Below, piece after piece: positions 15,195-63,270 of a stretch of 64,000 nucleotides of DNA (positions are counted from its first letter, which is position 1; each line of letters begins with the position of its first letter). The translations under genes and the position numbers were made by a program. This stretch comes from Argopecten irradians (lineage: Eukaryota; Mollusca; Bivalvia; Pectinida; Pectinidae): the NCBI RefSeq assembly GCF_041381155.1, contig NC_091144.1, positions 19,539,544 through 19,603,543 of the forward strand, in the 5' to 3' direction. The notes under the pieces were generated by a model that saw only the letters and a program-made list of their open reading frames with translations, made no database searches and had not been told where the DNA came from.

Positions 15195-17130
15195 TAAAAA
15201 CATTCTTTCCATAACATAATTTCCTTTATGTAACTTTTGAATATTAAAGTAAATTTTTGCTTACCAGTTTATTTTGATAATTTGGGGACTTTGTGTTAGT
15301 GTTTCTAAGTAACGTGCTTTGTGTTAATTGCTATAAATCAAACATAAAAGATCTTGAGTATACAGACAAGTCTCTAACAGATGCTAAAAGGGCTTAAGAC
15401 TACCGGTATATGTATATAACATATTGCTGTTTAGCTTGGCAGTTTTGTGATAAAACATGTTTTTTTGGCATTGAAAACCAAGTAGCTTGGATGTTGATAG
15501 TCAATTCATATTCATGTTCTGGAAACCAATCCGTACCTGATCTAATAAATATTTCCTGAATCGGTCTCCAAACAGCTGTACCTGATCTTATAAATATTAA
15601 CGTAATTTAATTTTCAGTTCAGACATGTTATTTATCTACTCTTGTTTTAAAAAGGGGATTTAGTTAAAACTTATTTTCATTTGCAATTTGAAGTAATTGA
15701 TATTACTTACGTTTGACATAGAGTCGTCAAAGCTTGTCATATTCCAGGGACCACATGAATGTTACATATGATTTATAAATTTTATCATTTCAAAATTGCA
15801 ATTTTCTAGTGATATTATTTGTAATTAACATGCCCAATAGATCATGGATTATGTGAGATTATAATACTTTACACCCTGAATCCTTTATAGTTAAAGAAAT
15901 CATGTTTTTTTCTTTCACATTTATCACTAGAAAAAGTGAAAAGAATCTGTAATTGTATATGGTTGTTGTGTTTGAAAGATTATGTAGTAATGTTTTTCAC
16001 TTTAAATTCATTAGTTTTAAAGTTTTATCTTGATTATTTCTTTTATTTAAGCAGATATTTAGATTTATATCTCTGATTTGATATATTGCATAAAATGTGT
16101 CACACTTCTCATGCTTTTTTGTTAAGAAATGATTTGAAAGAACAGTCTGTATTTTTATTTCATTTTTGTTTAATTAACCTTAGTGACTTATTGGTTGTTT
16201 AATTTTCATAGTTTGAAATAAAACAAAATGACTGGTTTTTTAAATTTTGAAGTGCTATAAGTTAGAACTGTTTTTTCATTTATTACTGATGACTAGTAAT
16301 TTGCAATCTAATTTCAAGTGTTTTGATGTTATGATATGTTTACCGTTAATTACTAACAAGCTTTTATGTGATCTCATTGTTCCAAAACTTGTGATGGGAT
16401 GTAAATATTTGAAGCCACTTTTATTTTTTTGGTTTCAAATGTCTGCAGATTTACACTTCATCCATTTTGTTGGCTAATTAGGTTTATATATTTATGTAAA
16501 TGACTCCATTACTGTGAAACATACTCAGCTGAAATTGTGTCATTTAAAACAAGGTGTTATTTGAATATCATTTGAATGAGCGGGCCAACAGAAGGGTTGA
16601 AATTTGGTATACCAGTACAAAAGAAGCCCAGTCTTTATAGCCAAGACTTGTAATGCAGATTTAGCAGCTGCTATATGTTTTATGTTGTCAAATGGAATGT
16701 TAGAAAAAATCAAATTTCTAACAATATTGAATATTTGAGATTCCTCTGACAACTAGTTGTATTATTGAGGACGGGACAGATTTACATTTTCAGATCTACT
16801 TCATTACTATAAAAACCCTTAAGTGACTATAAGTGACTATTAACCAAGTCGTAAATTGTTATTAATGCTATTTCTTATTTTTTCCCATGTTCTGTTTATA
16901 ATTTTCATTCGATTGTTAACGTTTTATGTTGAACATCACTTACTAGATTCATATATCTTTCTGAAATATACATGTAGATTATGCCATGAAAATTATTTAT
17001 AGTTTTACTGTCATATACGCAGTGCTTTTTTCGTTAATAAATGTGTTGCATTTAGCAAGAATGTATTCATTGTCTTTAAAACCTATATGCCTGCACAATC
17101 CATAGTGACACAGGAATTTGTTCTTTTTTT
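15195..17130. other. No gene seen
   Basis: AT-rich intergenic sequence with many short open frames but no exon-like conservation or repeat with clear ends. Confidence 0.5.
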
Positions 17131-17137
17131 GCATCCT

Positions 17138-17310
17138 ATTAACAGCCAGGGTCATCAAAGGACATACCAGGTTTAGGAAAGCAGGTTATCCCATAGAAAT
17201 AAAACACTTATTTATGATCACAAACTGGCAACTGGCACATCTGGTTCAAACTCAAAACTCTGAGGTCGAGCACTTGACAAATGTAGATCCAAGCAAAGTA
17301 GTAAAATGGA
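17138..17310 (+). repeat. CAGCCAGGGTCAT-type interspersed repeat, worn
   Basis: Contains TTAACAGCCAGGGTCATC, AAAGGACATACCAGGTTTAG, GAAAGCAGG and later ACTGGCAACTGGCAC. The same word order occurs at about 23833-23955, 34252-34345 and 36911-37010, so it is a dispersed family. Class unknown; possibly SINE-like. Confidence 0.5.
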
Positions 17311-17463
17311 AATCACTAATTGTAAGCAGTATTAATATTCATAACCTTTTACGTATACATCATGACTGAAGATCCAAACAATTATTTTTCACTGTAATTC
17401 ATTTTGAATTGATACAAGCACAATAGTACATCTTTTTATTTACATTTTCACTGCAGTCCCACT

Positions 17464-17553
17464 CATAGGTATTTAACTCGCCTGACAATACATGTCGATA
17501 TATAATCATAATTATATATTGACATGTATTGTCAGACGAGTTTAATACCTATG
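17464..17553. mobile_element. 90-bp foldback MITE with 8-bp target duplication
   Basis: An almost perfect hairpin: left arm CATAGGTATTTAACTCG, right arm CGAGTTTAATACCTATG, centre ATCATAAT. GTCCCACT is directly repeated at 17456-17463 and 17554-17561, which suggests hAT mobilisation. Confidence 0.8.
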
Positions 17554-17564
17554 GTCCCACTATG

Positions 17565-19020
17565 TAACCTTACCAAACGCAGTTGGCAGTCATATAGACA
17601 ATGAACTTTAAGCACTTATCATGTCATTATCATTGTGACATCACAATTGTCGTGCCAGCGATCACGGAAGACGGCTGTTCAAATGACTGTTCCATCCATG
17701 ACGATAACAAATGATTATTTCATTATAGATGCATAATTCCTTGGGATTTCATCATAAAATTGTAACCAAATGTAAATATAAGCGCGCTTCATGGAGTTTG
17801 CCTCTGTCCAGTTTGCATACATACTGGCTATGAATGCCAACTGAAAGACTTTCAATGCTTAAATGATTCCTGACTATGGCTATTTAGCTGTTGCCATATT
17901 TAACCAAGACCTTTTTGAGGATCTAGAAAAATTGGTGTACCAGTAAACTCCATTGATTTCTTTAATGTTGTGAATGGTTTTTTTAAACATTGGGTCTCTG
18001 GATATCTTGGTTAAAGTCTAGGTATATTTGACCCTTACGACCTTGACAAGATAAAAATAACCGACCTGGCTGTCTTGAGTGCATCGTGGTCAATTTCTCA
18101 TGCTGTAATCTTGGCTTCATTATTAGTGAAAGGCAATTAATCTCCTAAGAACATGAAAAATAAGGCAAGAAATCTAAATCAAATTTATTTTTAATGGGGA
18201 ATAACTGAATCAACCCTCCACACCACTTAATGCAGACTGGATTAAAATCCAACATGTACTTACAATTACAAACTTCTTTTCCTGAATTTACCTTCCACAA
18301 CAAATAGGCATACCAGTACATACTGAAATTAATTGAGCATTTGTAATATAAAATCATTACATACAAGATAAAACTTTAAAACATGTTGGTCCCTCAATAA
18401 ATATATATAAACAATATGGAATCAAATTAATTACAATTAGAAGTATGTTAAGTGTTGGTTAAATAAGGAAAAAAATCCTTTGAATTCCTAAGTGTATGGA
18501 TCTGTAACTGCTCTTTCACCAAGAATAATTGCTCATCTAGAGTTCCCCCCTACTACCAATATTGTATCAAAATTAAATAAGTTAAATATACAATTCTGTA
18601 GCACTATATTTAGGTATTGTGATAAAATTACGAATTCACATATTGCACTTTACATGAAATAATGCTTCAGATGTTAAATGCCATTACCACCTGGGGTTAT
18701 TATCACTACTATTATATCTACCCTTGGACTATGTTTATTATAAACATGAGAAAAAAATACCAAGCACAGGCCTGCAGAGAATTCTTTTGAAAATTACAAA
18801 GGAGCAATACTGGTATCTAACTTCACTGTCAGTACAGTGTATGCTATTCAATACGCCAAGTTCTTTTGATTTACATCAAAGAACCATACTATCTGTCTTG
18901 TCTTATACACAAGTTGTTGTACATATATATATGATAATAGTCCAGGTATGGGTATATTAATAGTGATAGTAAGGCCTGGAGATCAAGGATGCTTTAGAAT
19001 CATAGGTTTGGTATAGACCT
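17565..19020. other. No gene seen; 3' flank of NRBF2
   Basis: Nothing recognisable. Some of the right-hand part may be NRBF2 3' untranslated sequence (minus strand), but I could not fix a poly(A) site. Confidence 0.4.
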
Positions 19021-39134: not shown

Positions 39135-39394
39135 TACAGGATGCCCCAAAAACGTGTCCCGTCTTTCAGGTAAAAACTTTTTAATTCAAAATGCCTTTGA
39201 GAGCAGGAGTATCTTAATTTAACTTAATTCGGTACACATGTACTGATTACATCATCATTTCGTGTGATGACGTCATAATAGAAATTATGGCGTCATTTAT
39301 GTTGTTACGATTCAGCGACTTTCCATCAACATGAAGATTCAGGCTGAAATTATTGAACTCTACTATGCGACCAGAGAATCCGTTATCTTACATA

Positions 39395-39646
39395 AATTTC
39401 ACCCAATATGCATCTGTCTCTCTCTTGAAAATCATTACTTTTCTTATGGTACGAGGGTGATTCCAATATTAAACAACATAATGCGTAACTTGTATTTCAT
39501 CGAATCATATCATATATTTAAATTTCACCCAATATGCATCTGTCTCTCTCTTGAAAATCATTACTTTTCTTATGGTACGAGGGTGATTCCAATATTAAAC
39601 AACATAATGCGTAACTTGTATTTCATCGAATCATATCATATATTTA
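39395..39646 (+). repeat. 126-bp perfect tandem duplication across the transposon junction
   Basis: Positions 39395-39520 and 39521-39646 appear identical. Each contains 60 bp of flank (ending TTATGGTACGA) plus the first 66 bp of the inserted transposon (GGGTGATTCC onward). Therefore the duplication happened after the insertion, and recently. Confidence 0.9.
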
Positions 39647-39933
39647 AGGTTATTTTGTCGAAATATCAATAAATAAGCAACAAGAATGTATCTAAATCAT
39701 ATAAAATGACTCCATGGACTTTTAAAAGCATATTTAGGACCCAAATCGACTTGTAACCAAGCAGGAATGTTATATTGATCAGTTAATTATAACATCAAAC
39801 ATTTGAATATTGTAAACATTTAGCAGTCAAATAAAACCATTTTTACATAAGTTTTTAAAGTGTTTGTTCATTTCTTTAATGTTTAACTCTTAAATGATGA
39901 TTTTTCAACAAATTTTCTGTGTAACCAACACTG

Positions 39934-40515
39934 CGTCATTACCGTAACGATGATTTAAAATTGAAAATTATCTAAGAGTTATCGCCCTTTAAGCATGTTT
40001 CCTCTTCCTATCTGAGAGTTAGCGGCGGGAAAAATTTGACACGCCAATGTCTGCTGACCAGCGGTTTTCAGGAGAAGAAGGATTAGTCTGTAAGTTTCAA
40101 ATTTACTTAAGAATGTTTTTTACTAGTCATTACCGTACATTGGATATCTTACACCATACAACTGATTAAACTCTAGCAAGTATCTAACTGCTATACACAA
40201 TATCGTATGCAGCGTGGGAACAGATTGATTTTCTCCTTGTACTGTTAAGGGGCTCCATTCGGGGTTTTTTATAATAAAAAGTCATTACCATAACTGTCAT
40301 TACCAAAACGAGTACTCCAGTAACGGTAATGACCACACCGTTACGGAAATGACTTTCAATATGAAAATGAATTATTGACCATTATACAAATCAAAAATAA
40401 ATCATTATTAATAGTAAAATTATCAAATAAAATATAGAATGATACATGAATAGCAAATAACTGAGAAGTAAAACTTCAGTAACGGTTATAACAACAACGT
40501 TACGGAAATGACATT
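39934..40515. repeat. Left subterminal GTCATTACCGTAACG repeats
   Basis: Direct or inverted copies near 39936, 40126, 40282, 40298, 40321 (GTAACGGTAATGAC), 40339 (CCGTTACGGAAATGAC), 40480 and 40498 (CGTTACGGAAATGAC). Related words occur to the right of the gene at 46774-46826 and near 47142. They surround the first exon, so they may act in transposase binding, in promoter control, or both. Confidence 0.65.
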
Positions 40516-43500
40516 CATTATGAAAATGAATGATTTACCAATATACACATTAAAGATAAACCATTAAATGGTAAAATCATAAAAAACACGAAAGGAGATA
40601 TTAGCAAATAAATGAAATGTACCAAATTGAAATAAAGAAAATAACAAGTTTACTTTATCATAATAAATTATTTATAAATAGGGAGTACTGATTTATTTAT
40701 TTATATTTATTGCAGTGTACAAAACAATCCTTAATGAAACGGATAAAGGCTTAGCGGCCACAGAAAAACATTTCTTTGAACTTTTATCTGAAACTGGCGA
40801 AAAACCGCCAAATTGGGCCACAAGGGTTTGTGATCTGTACGATGATATAACCAACGCTAAAGACAAAATAGAACTAAGGAAAAGACAAAAAAGAATGGTT
40901 TTGTCAGGAGCAGAAAGAGCTGCGTTATGGCGGCAAAGACAGAGAGAAAATACAAATAAACATGATGAATATAAACGGAAAGAAAGAGAAAGATATCAAA
41001 TGCGAAAGAAAAAGGGTCAAATAAAAATGGTGGAAGATATGTCACACAGAGAACAAAGAAGCGCTAGAAAAAACTGGCGAAAGAATCAAAGAAACAAAAG
41101 GACCAAAGACAAAACAATTTCAAAGGCCATGAAAGAAACTTTGACGCCCCCGATGTCTCCAGATAATGAGAGAACGGTAGAGCACCTTAGTCGCAGAGAC
41201 TCAACAATGAAGAAAATTGGTCGTAAACGTGTCCGCCGTGACAGATCAAAAGCTTATAGAAAGATAGGAAAGTTAGAGGTAGCTCTGTTTAAGCAGAAAA
41301 GATTAGTAAACAAATATAAAGTTAGAAACTTTCGCTTAAAGGGACTAAATCGTTAAAAAATCATGTAATAAAAGATAAAACGAGTTATAGAACTGAAAAT
41401 AATGGTAAAAGTTATGTACTTTGTGTTTATAACAAAATTTAAAAGTCTGTATAACCATTTTGTTCAAAATGAAGAAAAAACTAAAAATAAATAGGAACGA
41501 CCTAGTCACTATTTCATATCATTATCTTTCGGCGAGGTAAACAATCCCTGTGTGCATGCGCGATGTGGGAACATTTACCGAAAGGAAATCTCATCTGTCT
41601 GATGGACATTATCTGCTGTCGACTGAAAACACCAATTTATCGACTACAAGTACCTTATTACTGTGTTAAATCTAATAAACGTTGAAACGTATGCAGAAGT
41701 TTTGTGAAGAGTTTCTAAGTGTAAATATCATATAGTGTACTGGTTTTTTGCAGCTTTAAGGAAGAGTTTTCATTATATTATAAGGTTTTATACTTGCTTC
41801 TTACATTATTTTATTTTCATTTGTCATATTAGGTACTAGATCGTTAAACCTGCCAATATTATTAGGTTTTAAAAAAAATGGCCTAATATATCAACTTTCT
41901 AATAAGGAAAAACTAATAATATAGGCATATTTAGCGGGCTAATGAGGTACATGTATTTCTTTTATCTTTATATCAATATTTGACATTCCCTATATATCCT
42001 TAGTTATAATGTCTATCCGTCTAATGGACATTCCCTATAGCCCTATAGTATACCCGTCTAATGGACATTCCTTTATATAGCCCTAGTTATAATATATATC
42101 CGTCTAATGGACATTCCTTATATAGCCATAGTTATAATATAAATCCGTCTAATTGCCATTCCCTATATATCGTTAGTTATATTATATATCCGTCTAATGG
42201 ATATTCCTTATATAGCCCTAGTTATAATATATATCCGTCAAATGGATATTCCTTATATAGCCCTAGTTATAATATATATCCGTCTAATGGACATTCCTTA
42301 TATAGCCCTAGTTATAATATATATCCGTCTAATTTGCCATTCCCTATATATCGTTAGTTATAGTCTCTATCCGTCTAATGGACATTCCCTACATAGCCCT
42401 AGTTATAATATAATATCCGTCTAATGGATATTCCTTATATAGCCCTAGTTATAATATATATCCGTCTAATGGACATTCCTTATATAGCCCTAGTTATAAT
42501 ATATATCCGTCTAATGGACATTCCCTATAAATACGTAGTTATAGTCTATCTGTCTAATGGAAATTCCCTATTATGCAAATATTTCATGGGTTACTGTGCT
42601 CTAGTTCATAATATAATGTATTAACCCGAGGTTCGACCTCGTGCAATATGATATTTGTTGATTACTACCACCGAGGGGTAAATATTATGAATTAGTGCAC
42701 AGAAACTCATGAAATATTTGTTTTATTATATAATCACTATTTTGTTTAGTTGAATATTTTATAAAACGAATACGACAATCACTTTAAATAAAACAAAATC
42801 AACAGCACCCTACCGTACGGAGAAGCTTCAAGTCCTATTGAAGATTGACGTATTACCTACGTACGTCACGTTCAAACTCCGGTTTGAATGTCTTATTTTC
42901 TTCGTTAACATTATTAGACCTGCATGCAGCCTTTTAATCTAATACATCGCCGTGTCCGTCCTCTATTCGATAAACGTCTACATGACGTGCTTGATTCGAG
43001 ATCTATAAAGCTAGCGCGAAATTGAGCGTGAACCTTTGTGACGTCATAATAACGTAACTCACTGTTACGCGCGATTCCTCGGAAGTTTATATTAATTAAA
43101 AAATCGTTGAAAATATTGTATTTTCTCGAATATGAATTGGTGTAAACAAATTATGTAATAAATATACCTATATATATATCCCTAGTTAATAATGTCTATC
43201 CGTCTAATGGACACTCCCCTATATAGCTACATGTCACTAGTTATATAACCTTTTTCCATCTGATTTACTTAAGATGTTCCACCGCCGACAGAGCATAAAT
43301 GATATTTATCATTTGAACAATAATTGGTGTTTTAATCGTGTACATATGCCTAATTAACACAAAAAATAGTATAAAATAATTTCTTTTGCCTTTGGTGCAT
43401 GCGCAAACAGTACTTAATTCCATATAAGATATAGTGCCACGGGGTTTTTTCGGGATGTAATTAATTATTTTTCATATTTTTTAACTTGAAGTAAAATTAG

Positions 43501-46500
43501 AAGCTCATTCAATGGTGGTAATTGTGTAAAGTAAGTAACTTTTGTTTTGTAACTGAAGAAAAACATTAAATCCTCTGCTCCTGTTTTTTGATAGTGAAAA
43601 AATACCATTTGTCAGCGATAGGGCGTCTTTAAAAAATCTACCGAACTATATATCTAAATTGTATGTGTATTTTCATGTATTCAAAGCAAAAAAATACCTT
43701 ACATATACATTTTAGACCTATGTAAAATGTATATGTTTGCTTTAATAAAGTACATGTACACCTGTATGATATATACATAATTAACGGGTGAAAATACCTC
43801 TCACTTCTTGTCATATTTTCATCACATACTCTAAAGCTTCATAGAACGTATGCTGATTTACTTATCGATGTATGTATCGGCTGTTTCACTGAATCAGGCC
43901 AATATAACTGATAGAATACAAGTGGCTTCTTATAGTGGTGTTATTACATCTATATCCATTAGCCGGATGAGATTTTCAGTGATCCCGATTTTGAACTCAA
44001 AGCTGCACTCGGGTCTTTCCGTGATAAACAGCCAATGTCGACAGATACAGTTTCTTGTTGAAAACATTTGTAAGGAAGTCAAAACCCCTAAGAAAATGTA
44101 AATCTAATGATTTAGTAACTTTAATTAAAACAAAAGTCAAAAGACACAAGCAGTTTGGAACAGAAGGTAAATGATATCATTAACAAACAGGAAACAAAGA
44201 AAGCTCTTCTAGTCTTTCAGTCAATCATAATCGAATGAGAAATAGTAACAAAACGAAGAGTGTAGACGAGAAAAGTAAAATTTCAAGTTTGATCTGCTCT
44301 TCAAAGGTACTGAAAAGGTTCCGTCTTGGCAGTTATGCAAGAGGTTTGCTAGGCTTTACTCGAGCACACATGACAGGAACGGCAAGGACTAGGGAAATAA
44401 GGACACCCAGATCGAAGAAACACGTACAAGATTTCTTAGAAAGAGATGACAATTCAAGAGTAAAAGCTGGGAAAAAATCCACTTCTTTGCGACAACATGA
44501 AGACGCTCCATAAAAAGTTTTTGACCGAAACTGATATGAAGGTATCTTACAGTTTATTTTGTTATTTCAAGCCCTTCTACATACTCAAAGCTACCGAAAA
44601 GGACAGGGAGACATGCCTATGCAAAACACACGAAAATCTGTGTTTCAAATTAAATAAATGCTTCCAAGAACAAATCATCAAATCAAATAACATTGAAACT
44701 TTCTTGAAAGATGTCACATGCAACATCGAAAACAAAGACTGCATGTATCGAGATTGCAGTAATTGTAAAGACCGCTGTATCACATTGAGCGATGATGTAG
44801 ATTCAGGAAAACAAACATGGTGGTTTGTATGGAAGAACAGGAGAGAAGAAAGAGAAAAACAAAAGAATGGACAAGGCACCACTACGGTCAACATAACAGT
44901 GAAAGAAAAAGAGTATGGCTCTAGGCAAATTCTGACGGAAGAACTAAACAAAGATATCTCGAAAGCTTCCAGGCACATTTTTAACATCCAGCATCAATAC
45001 AAGACGATTCGGTATCTTCGCCAGAGATTGACCCACGAGGAGATCATGATGCAAATTGACTTTTCCGAAAATTACAACTGCAAATATGCTTCTGAAATAC
45101 AGAGCATGCATTTTGGTTGTTCTCAACGGCAAATTTCTCTTCACACTGGTGTAGCCTACACAAAGAACACACTGTATTCTTTCTGTACAGTATCGGATTG
45201 TCTCAAACACGGCCCCGCTGCTATTTGGGCACACTTACATCCCATCCTGGAAGAACTTCGCTCAAAGACCCAAGCAACAAAAATCCATTTCATAAGTGAT
45301 GGCCCTACGACTCAGTACAGAAACAAACACAATTTCTACCTGTTTTCTACAAAATTGTTCAGGTATGGGTTCACTGAGGCAACATGGAATCTACTGGAAG
45401 CAGGACATGGCAAAGGGGCGGCTGATGGCATCGGAGGAGCGATAAAACGGACCGCTGATAATTACGTCAACAAAGGAGGTGATATCAAGGATGCATCTGA
45501 CTTGGTTGATGCCCTAACTTCAGCTGGATCGTCAATTATAATTCATAAAGTCGTCGAGGATGAAGTGACCGCAATCGAAGCGACGTTACCAACAACACTT
45601 AAACCTTTGTTGAAAACAATGCAAATTCACCAGGTGAGTAAAATCAATTAAACAATTAAAACTGCCGATAACACATTTTTTTATAACGTCTAACTTTTAT
45701 TCACAAGAAAATTTAATTAAGGATACATATTATCCAACTTAAGTAAGTTCAATGTTTACTTTATGCAGTATGTAAATTACGTAGATTTCGTCACCATGTC
45801 TTGTGTTGTGTACTTGACAAAAATAACGCAAAATAATTTAATCCTTATAGGTACTTGTAAGCTCACCAGGAGAAGTAAGACACCGTGTACTATCCTGCTT
45901 CTGCCAAAAACCTACTTTCTGCAACTGCTACGACCCTGTTGTGACAACGTTTCCAATCGAGGTACTTAGAATCACTTTATGTATCTAAATAATTATCAAA
46001 TACCAGGTAAAGTTTGTAAGTTTATGGACAGAACACCCTCTCTCATTTTCTAATCTTGCACTTCAGTCGGTTCCTTCGGACACTCTACCTACAGACGTCG
46101 TAACTGGAAGTTGTACTGCTGAGACTGAAAGGGAACCTGGAGATTTAGTCAAAGGGACCGAAAGAGATGTTCCTGTAAGGATCAACAGAGCGGTAAGATT
46201 GTGTAATAAAAAAATTGTTAACACAAAAAGAGTAGAAGAGATATTGTAATTACTAATATGCCCTTTTAATTTTCAGCTGGATCCAGCTACGAGTGCTGTC
46301 GGCGATGTAACTGATGCCAACGCCAGTTCACCATTAGTTAACCATAAAGATATACCAAATCTCGTCAAGGTGGATGTCGTCGATAACAGCATTGTCAACA
46401 AGTACTGTGTGGTCAAGTATGATGATCAAGCGTACCCCGGTATCATCCATGATGTAGACGATGATGAAGAGGTCGAGGTGCAGGTTATGCATAGGATTGG

Positions 46501-46657
46501 CAGGAACCGTTTCTTCTGGCCACTTATGCAAGACATCCTTTGGTACCCTAAGGAAAACATCATCACGATGTTAGCAGATCCTCCACAACTGGTGACAAAA
46601 AGGCACCACGAAATCACTCCAAAAATCTGGGCTCTTATCGAGAAAGAGCTAAATTAA
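40047..46657 (+). CDS. Orphan transposase-like protein (DDE-like triad), multi-exon, damaged
   Basis: Supported exons: 40047-40089 (MSADQRFSGEEGLV), 40716-41353, about 44137-45633, 45851-45961, 46067-46192 and 46277-46657. The junction after 41353 is not resolved. Parts in order: a Lys/Arg-rich region (ALWRQRQRENTNKHDEYKRK), a LTPPMSP motif, a basic helix, and a FLERDDNSR block. Next are DRETCLCKTHENLCFKL and the core with IDFSENY, EIQSMHFG, ISDGPTTQYRN and EAGHGKGAADGIGG. Then follow a CFCQKPTFCNCYDP knuckle and a C-terminal YCVVKYDDQAYPG domain. D in IDFSENY, D in ISDGP (79 residues on) and E in EAGHGKG (32 further) fit DDE spacing. I recall this as an unnamed family in cnidarians, fish and molluscs. 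Two 1-bp losses in A-runs (about 44234 and 44475) break the frame; they may be decay or assembly errors. AATAAA lies near 46752. Confidence 0.65.
41988..42566. repeat. 45-bp minisatellite, about 13 units
   Basis: Unit words: ATGGACATTCCTTATATAGC, CCTAGTTATAATATATATCC, GTCTA. Because 45 is a multiple of three, all frames stay open over several units (MDIPYIALVIIYIRL). A single further unit at about 43180-43235 shows the array was split by insertion of 42576-43170. It lies in the long intron of the orphan gene. Confidence 0.9.
42576..42720. mobile_element. Foldback in the minisatellite
   Basis: Arms CAAATATTTCATGGGTTACTG and its complement side CAGAAACTCATGAAATATTTG, further paired by CTAGTTCATAATA with TATTATGAATTAG. 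The unplaced sequence to 43170 may be part of the same insertion. Confidence 0.6.
43273..43628. mobile_element. TTAA-flanked MITE family A, copy 2
   Basis: Starts GATGTTCCACCGCCGACAG and ends TTTGTCAGCGATAGGGCGTCT, with TTAA at 43269-43272 and 43629-43632. Inserted in an intron of the transposon gene, so it is younger than that transposon. Confidence 0.7.
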
Positions 46658-46773
46658 ATCATGTGTTATCTGTTTAATGAAATTTTACAAGTTTTTCAAC
46701 AAATTTGACATTCGTGTCGTTGTTTGGTGTTTGAGAATTAGTTGTTTAATATGAATAAAAAAGTAAGTGGTGT

Positions 46774-47165
46774 CATCTCCGTAACACTTTGTCATTACCG
46801 GAACATGAAGTCACTTCCGTAACGTGGCCTTTAAAGACAAATGACGCATGAATAAATGATAAAATTGTCAAATAAATATTGAAATTGCAATTACCAATGA
46901 AATATACGTATGTTCAAATCCAAAATATAATTCAGTTAATTTCATAAGTTGTGTTATAATAAAAATCAAATTACATTTTGCTGTAGTTGTAAATAAGCAA
47001 ACATTAAACACTACACAGATATTATATTTCGTCTCCCGTTACATACACATGTGTTCAGTATTGTGAAATGAATTTTTTGTGGATGTATAACGAAAAGAAA
47101 TATCATTTTAAGTTCTAAAATAAATGTTCCAGCTATGTTTTCTTACGTTATGGTAATGACATTGA
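46774..47165. repeat. Right subterminal repeats of the 7.8 kb transposon
   Basis: GTCATCTCCGTAAC, GTCATTACCGGAAC and GTCACTTCCGTAACG lie close together at 46774-46826, and TTACGTTATGGTAATGAC near 47142-47160. They are the counterparts of the left-hand set. Confidence 0.6.
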
Positions 47166-47445
47166 GATCAGAGTTATGTTAAAAAAAATGTTACTGTGTA
47201 TATTCAACATTGATTGACTCACTGCAAAATAATGAAATAACAACTTTTCGTTTTGTACTTTGTGTCAATAAAGATTTTTTTCTCAAAATGGCATTTTTTA
47301 TTTTTAAAATCCAAAGGTGCAAAATGTCGTTTAATTTTGGAATCACCCACGAACATTATCAAATTCTTCTGTCTATTGAAACACTTTTTTCTGGGACCCC
47401 CTGTATATACTGTATATGATAAACATGTAGTGTATTATGTATAGG

Positions 47446-47581
47446 ATAAACCCCGAGTTGGTGTTGAATAGGCCAGAGAAAACACATTTATCGAGGCCAA
47501 TCAATTTTATTGATTTATCGAATCAAAGCCCGATATAGGGTGTTTTCTCTGGTCTTTTCTACACCAACGAGTGGTTTATCC
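47446..47581. mobile_element. Foldback MITE, copy in segment a
   Basis: Arms GGATAAACCCCGAGTTGGTG and CACCAACGAGTGGTTTATCC with internal GCCAGAGAAAACAC pairing GTGTTTTCTCTGG. The duplicate segment holds a shorter-looped copy at about 61248-61368. Confidence 0.7.
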
Positions 47582-49064
47582 AACTTAAAACATTCTCATC
47601 CCCTTATGACCCCCATCAAACATTGCAACAATTCAACTATCCAACTGTTGGATAGTTGAATAAAACTTAATTGGTTACATAGGTAAATCAGGTTTATTAA
47701 ATGGTCTAATAAACACAACCAGGAAAGGTTAATACTATTCGCCATATCACGGTTACATGGTCATTGATTAGGAATGGATTTAACATGGCATTGCTGTTTA
47801 TAGTGAAAATTCAATCATTAACTACACCCAACGATCCAAAAAAGTTTCTGTGAATTTTATTCTTGTGCCGATATCAAATGAAGATTTATATATCGAAATA
47901 CCATATATTCAGTGATATTTTTTCCGAAAGAGCAAAAGTGTTCTTGAAATCCAATTCATGATTGGGAACAAAACGCACCTTACAGAAGAGTTGCGTAAAA
48001 GATACCTCTAATATAGGATATAATTTGACACCTTTATCACTTCCCTTCTGGAGAGGTGAAGTGTCATGCAAACAAAGGACATTGTGTAAGGATTGTAAAA
48101 CCAGGATTGTTTTAAATAGAAATCGAACGTAACTTCATATTAAAATCATTCAGTGTATCTTTTCATTTGGGAAAACACTACATTGTATCTTTCTTGAAAC
48201 ATGCATATTTTTAGAGATTTTTTTGAGAAAATATTAATATAAAATTGGGAAAATACAGCAAAATTTTTCAAGGTGAAGTGGCCTTTATTCGGCTCCAAAT
48301 GCACCTAAAAATCATTGTCGTTGATTTTATACTAAGTGTTCGTTGTGCTTGAAGAATCATTTAGAACACATACACAAGATGAAGGAATATTTATTAATTG
48401 ATTTTTTCGCAAATATTTTTTTTCTTACACAATATCTATACGCACATGTACAAGTATTGTATATTTTACCTACATGTCTACCACAGTAAAATGGACCTTT
48501 GTTCGCAAGTCTTAAAATTCATGTGTATTTATCACTAGATTAGAACTGTTGGATATTTGACTATCCAACGGTAATACTGTTGGTCCACCTGACCATAATT
48601 GGATAGTGAAACTATACATCTGTTGTACACAATGAATGATTTATTAATTTATACTTATAAAACTGACTCACTATTGTAACGTAATATATTTTCTTTGAAA
48701 GTACATTCCTTTTAAAAGACAGATGGTACATACATATTTTATGCTTGCATGGCCCTCAGATTACACGTAATAGAATAGAGATAATTGTTGACGCTAAAAA
48801 TCCAATATCAAAAGTGAATTCAAAATGTCAGCGTTTCTTCTCAAAATTACAACATATCAGTTTCGACAGTGTTGAGCCCTATCAGCACAAAAACCATGAT
48901 GTTTTGCACATTCATTATAATGTTATTAATTTACTTTCGTTGTGTTCATGTTTCTGGTGGACACTGTCAATGACCACTCTTGTCGAGTAACATTTCATTT
49001 GTCACATACATTAGCAATATCACTTATAGTTTAGATTAACAGTATTTTGCGTCATTGTTTGAGA

Positions 49065-61107: not shown

Positions 61108-63270
61108 GCAAATCATTACTTTTCTCATGGTACAAACATTATCAAATTCTTCCGTCTATTGAAACATTTTTTATAAAGTGTCAAACTTGTTTGTTTTTGG
61201 GACACCCTGTTTACACTGTACGTGATAAACATTTAGTGTATTATGTATAGGACAAACCTCGAGTTGGTGTTGAATAGGCAAGAGAAAACACACCTATCGA
61301 GATCGAAGGCCCGAGATAGGGTGTTTTCTCTGGTCTTTTCTACACCAACGAGTGGTTTATCCAACTTAAAACATTCTCATTCCCTTTTGACCCCCATCAA
61401 ACATTGCAACAATTCAACTATCCAACTGTTGGATAGTTGAATAGAACTTAATTGGTTACATAGGTAAATCAAGTTTATTCAATGGTCTAATGAACACAAC
61501 CAGGAAAGGTTAATATATACTAGGTTCACTAGTACTGTACACGTGCATTCTATTCGCCATATCACTGTTACACGGTCGTTGATTAAGAATGGATTAAACA
61601 TGGCATTGCTGTTTATAGTGATAATTCAATCATTAATTACACACAACGATCAAAAAAAAATCTGTGAATTTTATTCTTGTTGATATCAAATGAAGATTTT
61701 AATATTGAAATAACCTATTTTCAGCGATATTTATGATAAGGAAATTGTAAATTCCGAAGGAGCAAAAGTGTTCTTGGAATCCAATTCATGACTGGAAACA
61801 AAACACACCTTAAAGATGCTCCATCGCCGACAGAGCATAAATGATATTCATCATTTAAACAATAACTGGCGTGTAATCGTGTATATATCTGTCTAATTAA
61901 CACAAAAACTAATATAAAATAATTTATTTTGCCTTTGGTGCATGCACAATTAGTACTTCATTCCATATAGGATATAGTGCCACGGAATTTTTTCGGGATG
62001 CAATTAATTATTTTTTATATTTTTACTTTTAAGTAAAATTAGAAGCTCAAACTTTTCAATGGTGGTAATTGTGTAAAGTACGTAATTTTTGTAACTGAAG
62101 AAAAATACTAAATCGTCTGCTTTTGATAGTGAAAAAACATCATTTGTCAGCGATGGAGCATCTTTAAAGAAGAGTTGTGGAAAATATACCTCTAACATAG
62201 GATATAATTTGACACCTAAGTTATCACTTCTCTTGTGTAGAGGTGATGTGTCATGCAAACAAAGGACATTGTGTAAGGATTGTAAAACCAGGATTGTTCT
62301 AAATAGAAATCGAACGTAACTTCATATTAAAATCACGCAGTGGTTTTTTCCTCAATAATTTCAGGGCCTGCATCTTTTCATTTGGGAAAACACTACATTG
62401 TATCTTTCTTGAAACATGCATATTTTTAGAGATTTTTGGAGAAAATTTTAACATAAAATTGGGAAAATACAGCAAAATTTTTCAAGGTGAAATGGCCTTT
62501 ATTCGGCTCCAAATGCACCTAAAACTCACTGTCATTGATTTTGTACTAAGTGTTCGTTGTGCTTGAAGAATCATTTATAACACATATACAGGATGAAGGA
62601 ATATTTATTAATTGATTTTTTCGCAAAAGTTTTTTTTTCTTACACAATATCTATACGCACATGTACAAGTATTGTGTATTTTACTTACATGTCTACCACA
62701 GTAAAATGGACCTTTGTTTCAAAGTTTTTTTTATTGTTCCCAAGGCTTAAAAATCATGTGTATTTATCACTAGATTAGAACTGTTGGATATTTGACTATC
62801 CAACGGTAATACTGTTGGTCCACCTGACCATAATTGGATAGTGAAACTATACATCAATGGGTGATTTTTTAATTTATACTTATAAAACTGACTCACTATT
62901 TTAATGTAATATATTTTCTTTGAAAGTGCATTCCTTTTAAAAGACAGATGGTACATACATATTTTATGCTTGCATGACCCTCAGATAAAACGTAATAGAT
63001 AATTGTTGACGCTAAAAATCCAATATCAAAAGTGAATTCAAAATGTCAGCGTTTCTTCTCAAAATTACAACATATCAGTTTCGACAGCGTTGAGCCCTAT
63101 CAGCACAAAAACCATAATGTTTTGCACATGTTATTAATTTACTTTCGTTGTGTTCATGTTTCTGGTGGACACTGTCAATGACCACTCTTGTCGAGTAACA
63201 TTTCATTTGTCACATAAATTAGCAATATCACATATAGTTTAGATTAACAGTATTTTGCGTCATTGTTTGA
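61108..63270. repeat. Segmental duplication, copy c
   Basis: Matches the flank of the 7.8 kb transposon and then 47404-49060. It differs by a family A MITE (61814-62163) absent from copy a, by absence of the big transposon, and by absence of the 49065-49590 insertion. It runs on past 63270 matching 49594 onward. Confidence 0.8.
61814..62163. mobile_element. TTAA-flanked MITE family A, copy 3
   Basis: Ends AGATGCTCCATCGCCGACAG and TGTCAGCGATGGAGCATCT; TTAA at 61810-61813 and 62164-62167. The paralogous empty site is in copy a near 47979 (CACCTTACAGAAGAG), so this insertion postdates the segmental duplication. Confidence 0.85.

Follow-up and report, generated by a model that had tools for sequence, protein, structure and literature searches.

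A 64,000-nucleotide stretch of the genome of the bivalve Argopecten irradians (Pectinida; Pectinidae), here called the window (NCBI RefSeq assembly GCF_041381155.1, contig NC_091144.1, positions 19,539,544 to 19,603,543 of the forward strand; position 1 is its first letter), contains at positions 39581-47348 a real, bounded and decayed DNA transposon with a 4-base pair (bp) target duplication and its own transposase. This element is read here, with a probability of about 85%, as an autonomous cut-and-paste DNA transposon of which an old and broken copy survives. The family that it represents is most likely new but of a known kind, old and low in copy number, and the fit of its anatomy to the published description makes a Sola or Sola-like position probable.

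The element spans 7768 bp, including an extra segment discussed below, and is delimited by inverted ends which, upon comparison of the sequence from 39581 with the reverse complement from 47348, match in 10 of 10, 19 of 20 and 26 of 30 bases. The terminal inverted repeat is thus 30 bp long, with the left copy at 39581-39610 (plus strand), beginning with GGGTGATTCC and coinciding with the start of homology to a relative on another contig (C9), and the right copy at 47319-47348 (minus strand). Directly outside both ends the sequence reads ACGA (39577-39580 and 47349-47352). A chance check for an exact 12-bp inverted end, a distance of 1-12 kilobases (kb) and identical 4 bp outside retrieved only three pairs in the entire window, two of which are this element with either its outer or its inner left end, while the third owes its flanking match to a palindromic TTAA within its own inverted repeat. 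The inverted ends of this third pair (16021-18375) are short and AT-rich, lie 2.36 kb apart and have TTAA outside; it is a weak candidate since TTAA is palindromic, and no open frame of 90 amino acids (aa) was found inside. The alternative left ends of the element are owed to a perfect 126-bp tandem duplication, present in two copies at 39393-39647 and spanning the junction of flank and element, because of which the left end is present twice and a start at 39455 (the outer end) or 39581 is equally good. The duplication is later than the insertion of the element and, judged from the complete absence of mismatches, looks recent.

Sites without the element were also found. When the two flanks are joined with one copy of ACGA retained, they align across the junction to 61110-61816 of the window (plus strand; 79% identity over 735 columns), a paralogous empty site where left flank, a single 4-bp target copy (here ACAA) and right flank are continuous, reading ...CTCATGGTACAAACATTATC... 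without the element. A search of the genome (846 megabases, 1508 contigs) with 140 bases of joined flanks gave 15 scored matches, of which 12 cross the junction, with the window's own flank pieces accounting for the other three; boundaries and 4-bp duplication are therefore well supported. These empty sites show that the element had inserted into one copy of a dispersed repeat, duplicating 4 bp of it. Among the 12 junction-crossing sites, the one at 61110-61816 was inspected in detail; the left flank common to the empty sites is short, covering at most query positions 35-60, and contig C7 holds five of the 12, which may not be independent. The stretches 47353-48352 and 61125-62566 of the window are themselves paralogous (79-87% identity), stemming from a dispersed repeat or a segmental duplication that was used as target. 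Taken together, the inverted ends, the ACGA target duplication and the related empty site elsewhere in the window, all of which the original prediction had proposed from the letters of the sequence, are borne out, and the ends, the duplication and the empty sites support a mobile element with the boundaries originally assigned.

A further feature of the predicted anatomy, matching sets of repeats on both sides, has also held. The motif GTCATTACCGTAAC, with up to three mismatches, occurs 17 times in the window, 12 times within the element, and is found in both orientations approximately 190-930 bp inward of the two ends, with eight matches at 39935-40512 on the left and four at 46772-47160 on the right. 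Shuffled versions of the window gave an average of 5.24 matches, with none of 100 shuffles reaching 17, and similar sites are visible by eye in the C9 copy. These subterminal repeats are plausible as putative transposase-binding sites.

Between the repeats lie the pieces of a gene. Pieces within 40880-46648 follow the order of an 872-aa frame that runs uninterrupted on a different contig (locus L004, C526), matching its residues 2-150, 146-285, 294-686, 698-817 and 714-870 in turn. All pieces are on the plus strand. An open frame at 40682-41353, with homology to the 872-aa relative at 40880-41338, would constitute the basic N-terminal part of the transposase. A middle part at 44043-44492 (residues 146-285) contains frame breaks and shows a weak match of 25% identity, with its first bases, which overlap the extra segment, probably not representing true homology. 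The predicted catalytic core at 44482-45636 (residues 294-686) is 46% identical; a Cys-rich stretch (LSCFCQKPTFCNC) with its following region at 45884-46183 (residues 698-817) again matches weakly (22.5%); and a conserved C-terminal domain at 46157-46648 (CVVKYDDQAYPGII...FFWP...ILWYP) is 37% identical. Stops are present in all three forward frames between 44140 and 44520, and the middle of the gene changes frame. In the 3' part, GT-AG borders found by inspection, such as GTGAGT at 45634, suggest true small introns. As judged from the sequence, the window copy is the remains of one predicted transposase gene, broken by a segment of approximately 2.76 kb and by frame breaks.

This segment extends from 41342 to approximately 44099-44137 and is missing from the C9 copy, the closest relative at the DNA level, where the counterparts of 41341 and 44100 lie side by side, with an ambiguous overlap of some 30 bases. 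Equally, the 872-aa frame of L004 runs through its site. The segment contains a dispersed repeat (43264-43636) with further copies in the window and is probably a nested insertion. An intron of an intact gene was rejected as explanation for 41342-44099, as the C9 copy is devoid of the segment and the 872-aa relative reads through. A spliced intron at this place is still conceivable, with the C16 copy of the family also showing about 1.5 kb there as a gap between its matches. Of the multi-exon gene originally predicted, the coding pieces thus stand, being collinear with an uninterrupted frame, whereas its large 'intron' is more likely an insertion. A 45-bp tandem array of about 12 copies is located within the segment at 41982-42571, and no part for it in transposition was apparent, though no test aimed at one was made; near the same place the C16 copy (L016, 3097-3984) carries another array, built of units of about 150 bp.

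In an alignment of nine proteins, D199, E312, H315, a GKG motif and D321 are invariant in all nine. The candidate acidic residues of the window core are encoded on the plus strand at 45058-45060 (aspartate, D), 45298-45300 (D), 45397-45399 (glutamate, E) and 45424-45426 (D). The second aspartate (codon 45298-45300) is kept, as judged by eye, in eight of the nine proteins, the exception being the copy L030, whose frame is short (407 aa). Such an arrangement would match the expectation for the core of a DDE/D transposase. Both E312 and D321 are invariant, so the alignment fits either DDD or DDE; we favour D321 as the third acid because of its expected position, where the last helix would begin.

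A coherent scheme of transposition can be proposed from these features. A single gene would give rise to a transposase of roughly 870 aa, composed of a basic N-terminal DNA-binding part, an RNase H-like core, the Cys-rich stretch and the conserved C-terminal domain, with the chemistry of the core performed via three acidic residues, probably D, D and D. The enzyme may bind to the ends and to the repeated GTCATTACCGTAAC sites inside them, excise the element at GGGTGATTCC/GGAATCACCC and insert it into a target whose strands are cut 4 bases apart, repair of which would create the ACGA duplication. The window copy would subsequently have been damaged by the approximately 2.76 kb segment, the frame breaks and the tandem duplication of its left end.

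At the DNA level, four loci of the family of the window were found, on C11 (the window), C9, C16 and C3, with the other three 75-92% identical to the window in the matched pieces. The C9 copy (L011, L044; C9:20738378-20742013) shows 83-84% identity to the window through the gene pieces; its homology begins at the left end of the window element with TGGTGAATCCAAAATTAAAC, and its flank is unlike the flank in the window. Over the stretches compared, numerous single-base insertions in the C9 copy account for most of its difference from the window; these may be artefacts of the assembly.

Protein comparison extends the group, with a search of the genome giving 96 matches at very roughly 55-60 places, after merging neighbouring fragments by eye. 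A C1-type lineage, its core 45% identical to that of the window, includes a complete element of 4638 bp (C1:65314922-65319559) with GGGTCAATATCTC (GGGT) ends and ATTT on both sides, the one relative of its lineage read at both ends. Single ends of other C1-type copies have ATCT (C8, C1149) or AATT (C444, C169, C15) outside; the three AATT loci, having similar flanks, probably count as one event. The C1-type end pattern is not selective with up to two mismatches (536 matches versus 286 for the reversed control), and these ends were used at known loci only. A remote lineage (the GACGTAACGCGCGATG family), 24% identical in the protein alignment, has been amplified: 61 ends carry its 23-bp inverted repeat within two mismatches, versus none for the reversed pattern, and facing ends form five pairs about 4.3 kb apart and eight pairs 1.6-2.4 kb apart, the latter of which look like shorter derivatives. 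Members of a fourth lineage (C15, C471 and C9:19.6M) are 99.4-99.8% identical over the 3.7 kb compared, with uninterrupted frames of 879 and 865 aa in two of the three copies. A repeat of approximately 280-440 bp is found inside or beside many of the relatives retrieved (L009, L013, L014, L020, L028, L032, L036 and others). Furthermore, a 354-aa frame on the minus strand near a relative element (L077 on C14, approximately 142-1203) resembles a piggyBac transposase by eye.

Several observations weigh against the reading of the window copy as an autonomous cut-and-paste transposon with 4-bp duplications. Among the four loci of the family, both ends have been seen only in the window copy: the C16 copy loses homology 59 bp short of the right end, and the right end of the C9 copy was not found in the 6.1 kb searched. 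With up to three mismatches, the full end pattern of 29-31 bases occurs in the genome only in the window (three matches) and on C9 (one match). A shortened 20-base pattern gave 176 matches in the genome versus 79 for the reversed control at the same number of mismatches, yet of 27 places with this pattern that were read (L040-L066), C9 alone led on into the element, and two others matched only the dispersed repeat of the extra segment. Equally, the remote lineage is flanked by ATG/ATG on C14 and AAT/ATT on C4 in the two copies read, and the 5.2 kb block common to C15 and C471 (99.7% identity) shows neither an inverted repeat nor a target duplication at its edges. A single-sequence structure model of the 395-aa core reached a mean predicted local distance difference test score (pLDDT) of 36, too low to support the predicted RNase H fold. 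The expectation that copies share the ends and the protein family is thus realized in part, with the same left end and the same gene on C9 and both ends kept only in the window. Likewise, a relative of the gene lies in the separate GGGT-ended C1 element, which has a 4-bp duplication of ATTT.

Assignment to a superfamily has to proceed from anatomy. Pfam scans with five window pieces and with the nine proteins of the alignment hit unrelated families only, and those weakly; with E values up to 1, the nine proteins matched 13 families, none of them a transposase or integrase, the best at E 0.0023 (a centrosomin motif). Profile scans of IMG/VR and GTDB contigs gave 51 and 45 pattern matches, respectively, with no relative confirmed; a profile search of the PDB gave two matches (E 0.13 and 0.98), neither of which was used; and motif strings such as DFSENF, EAGHGKG and HGKGPCDG were absent from the papers searched. 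To our knowledge, Pfam holds no model for Sola, and absence from Pfam does not rule it out.

Compared with the published description, rather than with a transposase sequence, Sola accommodates most of the features observed. A passage in PMC10741241 describes Sola transposons as encoding DDD enzymes, duplicating 4 bp of the target and measuring mostly 2-9 kb, with variable inverted ends of 11-1124 bp. The duplications found here (ACGA in the window, ATTT on C1), the inverted ends of 30 bp, the lengths of 7768 and 4638 bp and a possible DDD transposase are in line with this outline. Sola is grouped among RNase H-like enzymes in part of a further source (PMC3985635), and Sola1, 2 and 3 are listed for bivalves in an excerpt of another (PMC10294476). 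For Sola2 of dictyostelids, a section of PMC3627910 gives a transposase of 888 aa and 4-bp duplications that are AT-rich (AWWT), to be compared with ATTT, ATCT and AATT outside the C1-type ends; in contrast, the target of the window copy is not AT-rich, reading ACGA and, at the empty site 61110-61816, ACAA. Another difference concerns distribution, as occurrence of Sola in bacteria is stated in the passage of PMC10741241, while no bacterial relative was found in the scan of GTDB contigs. The original assignment to an unrecognised superfamily is consequently not established, as the Sola description covers the anatomy.

The most serious competitor, which we nevertheless consider unlikely, is an undescribed superfamily of animal DNA transposons that would use the same cut-and-paste mechanism and share its 4-bp duplications with Sola by chance. 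It would be characterised by a transposase of about 870 aa with the motif DF(S/A)EN ... (S/T)D(G/S)xxxQY ... ExxHGKGxxD and a conserved C-terminal domain, and by many diverged lineages in one genome, those of the window and of C1 having 4-bp duplications. The absence of relatives from Pfam, PDB, GTDB and IMG/VR and of the motif strings from the papers searched would agree with such a novelty, as would target duplications that may not all be 4 bp across the wider group. On the other hand, the correspondence with the Sola outline (PMC10741241, in part) and the listing of Sola from bivalves (PMC10294476, in part) argue for the Sola or Sola-like position.

Membership of one of the other known superfamilies whose duplications measure about 4 bp (Ginger, Kolobok, piggyBac or Academ) is very improbable, duplication length alone speaking in its favour and no transposase or integrase being among the 13 Pfam families matched by the nine proteins. 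Kolobok and piggyBac move by cut-and-paste with a DDE/D enzyme, and Ginger creates a 4-bp target duplication. A passage in PMC9587614 states that Kolobok and piggyBac duplicate TTAA; they share the length of the duplication with the elements described here, which lack a Pfam match, and are excluded by target sequence, ACGA and ATTT in place of TTAA. Ginger carries a Gypsy-like integrase according to a passage in PMC10741241, and no integrase family was matched here. Least probable of all is a host gene whose inverted ends arose by accident or are those of a non-autonomous element by which it was captured, as, despite one young pair of relatives (C15, C471) in a block without recognisable ends and the low copy number of the window family, relatives reside within two separate kinds of inverted-end element, gene and left end occur together on C9 and protein matches are dispersed over the many places given above.

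The decayed copy in the window thereby illustrates that a transposase family without a matching Pfam model can occupy dozens of loci in one genome. Domain-based annotation would miss such a family or label its members as host genes. The uninterrupted frames of 872, 879 and 865 aa, together with the complete C1 element, provide a starting set for curation of this group and for its placement relative to Sola.

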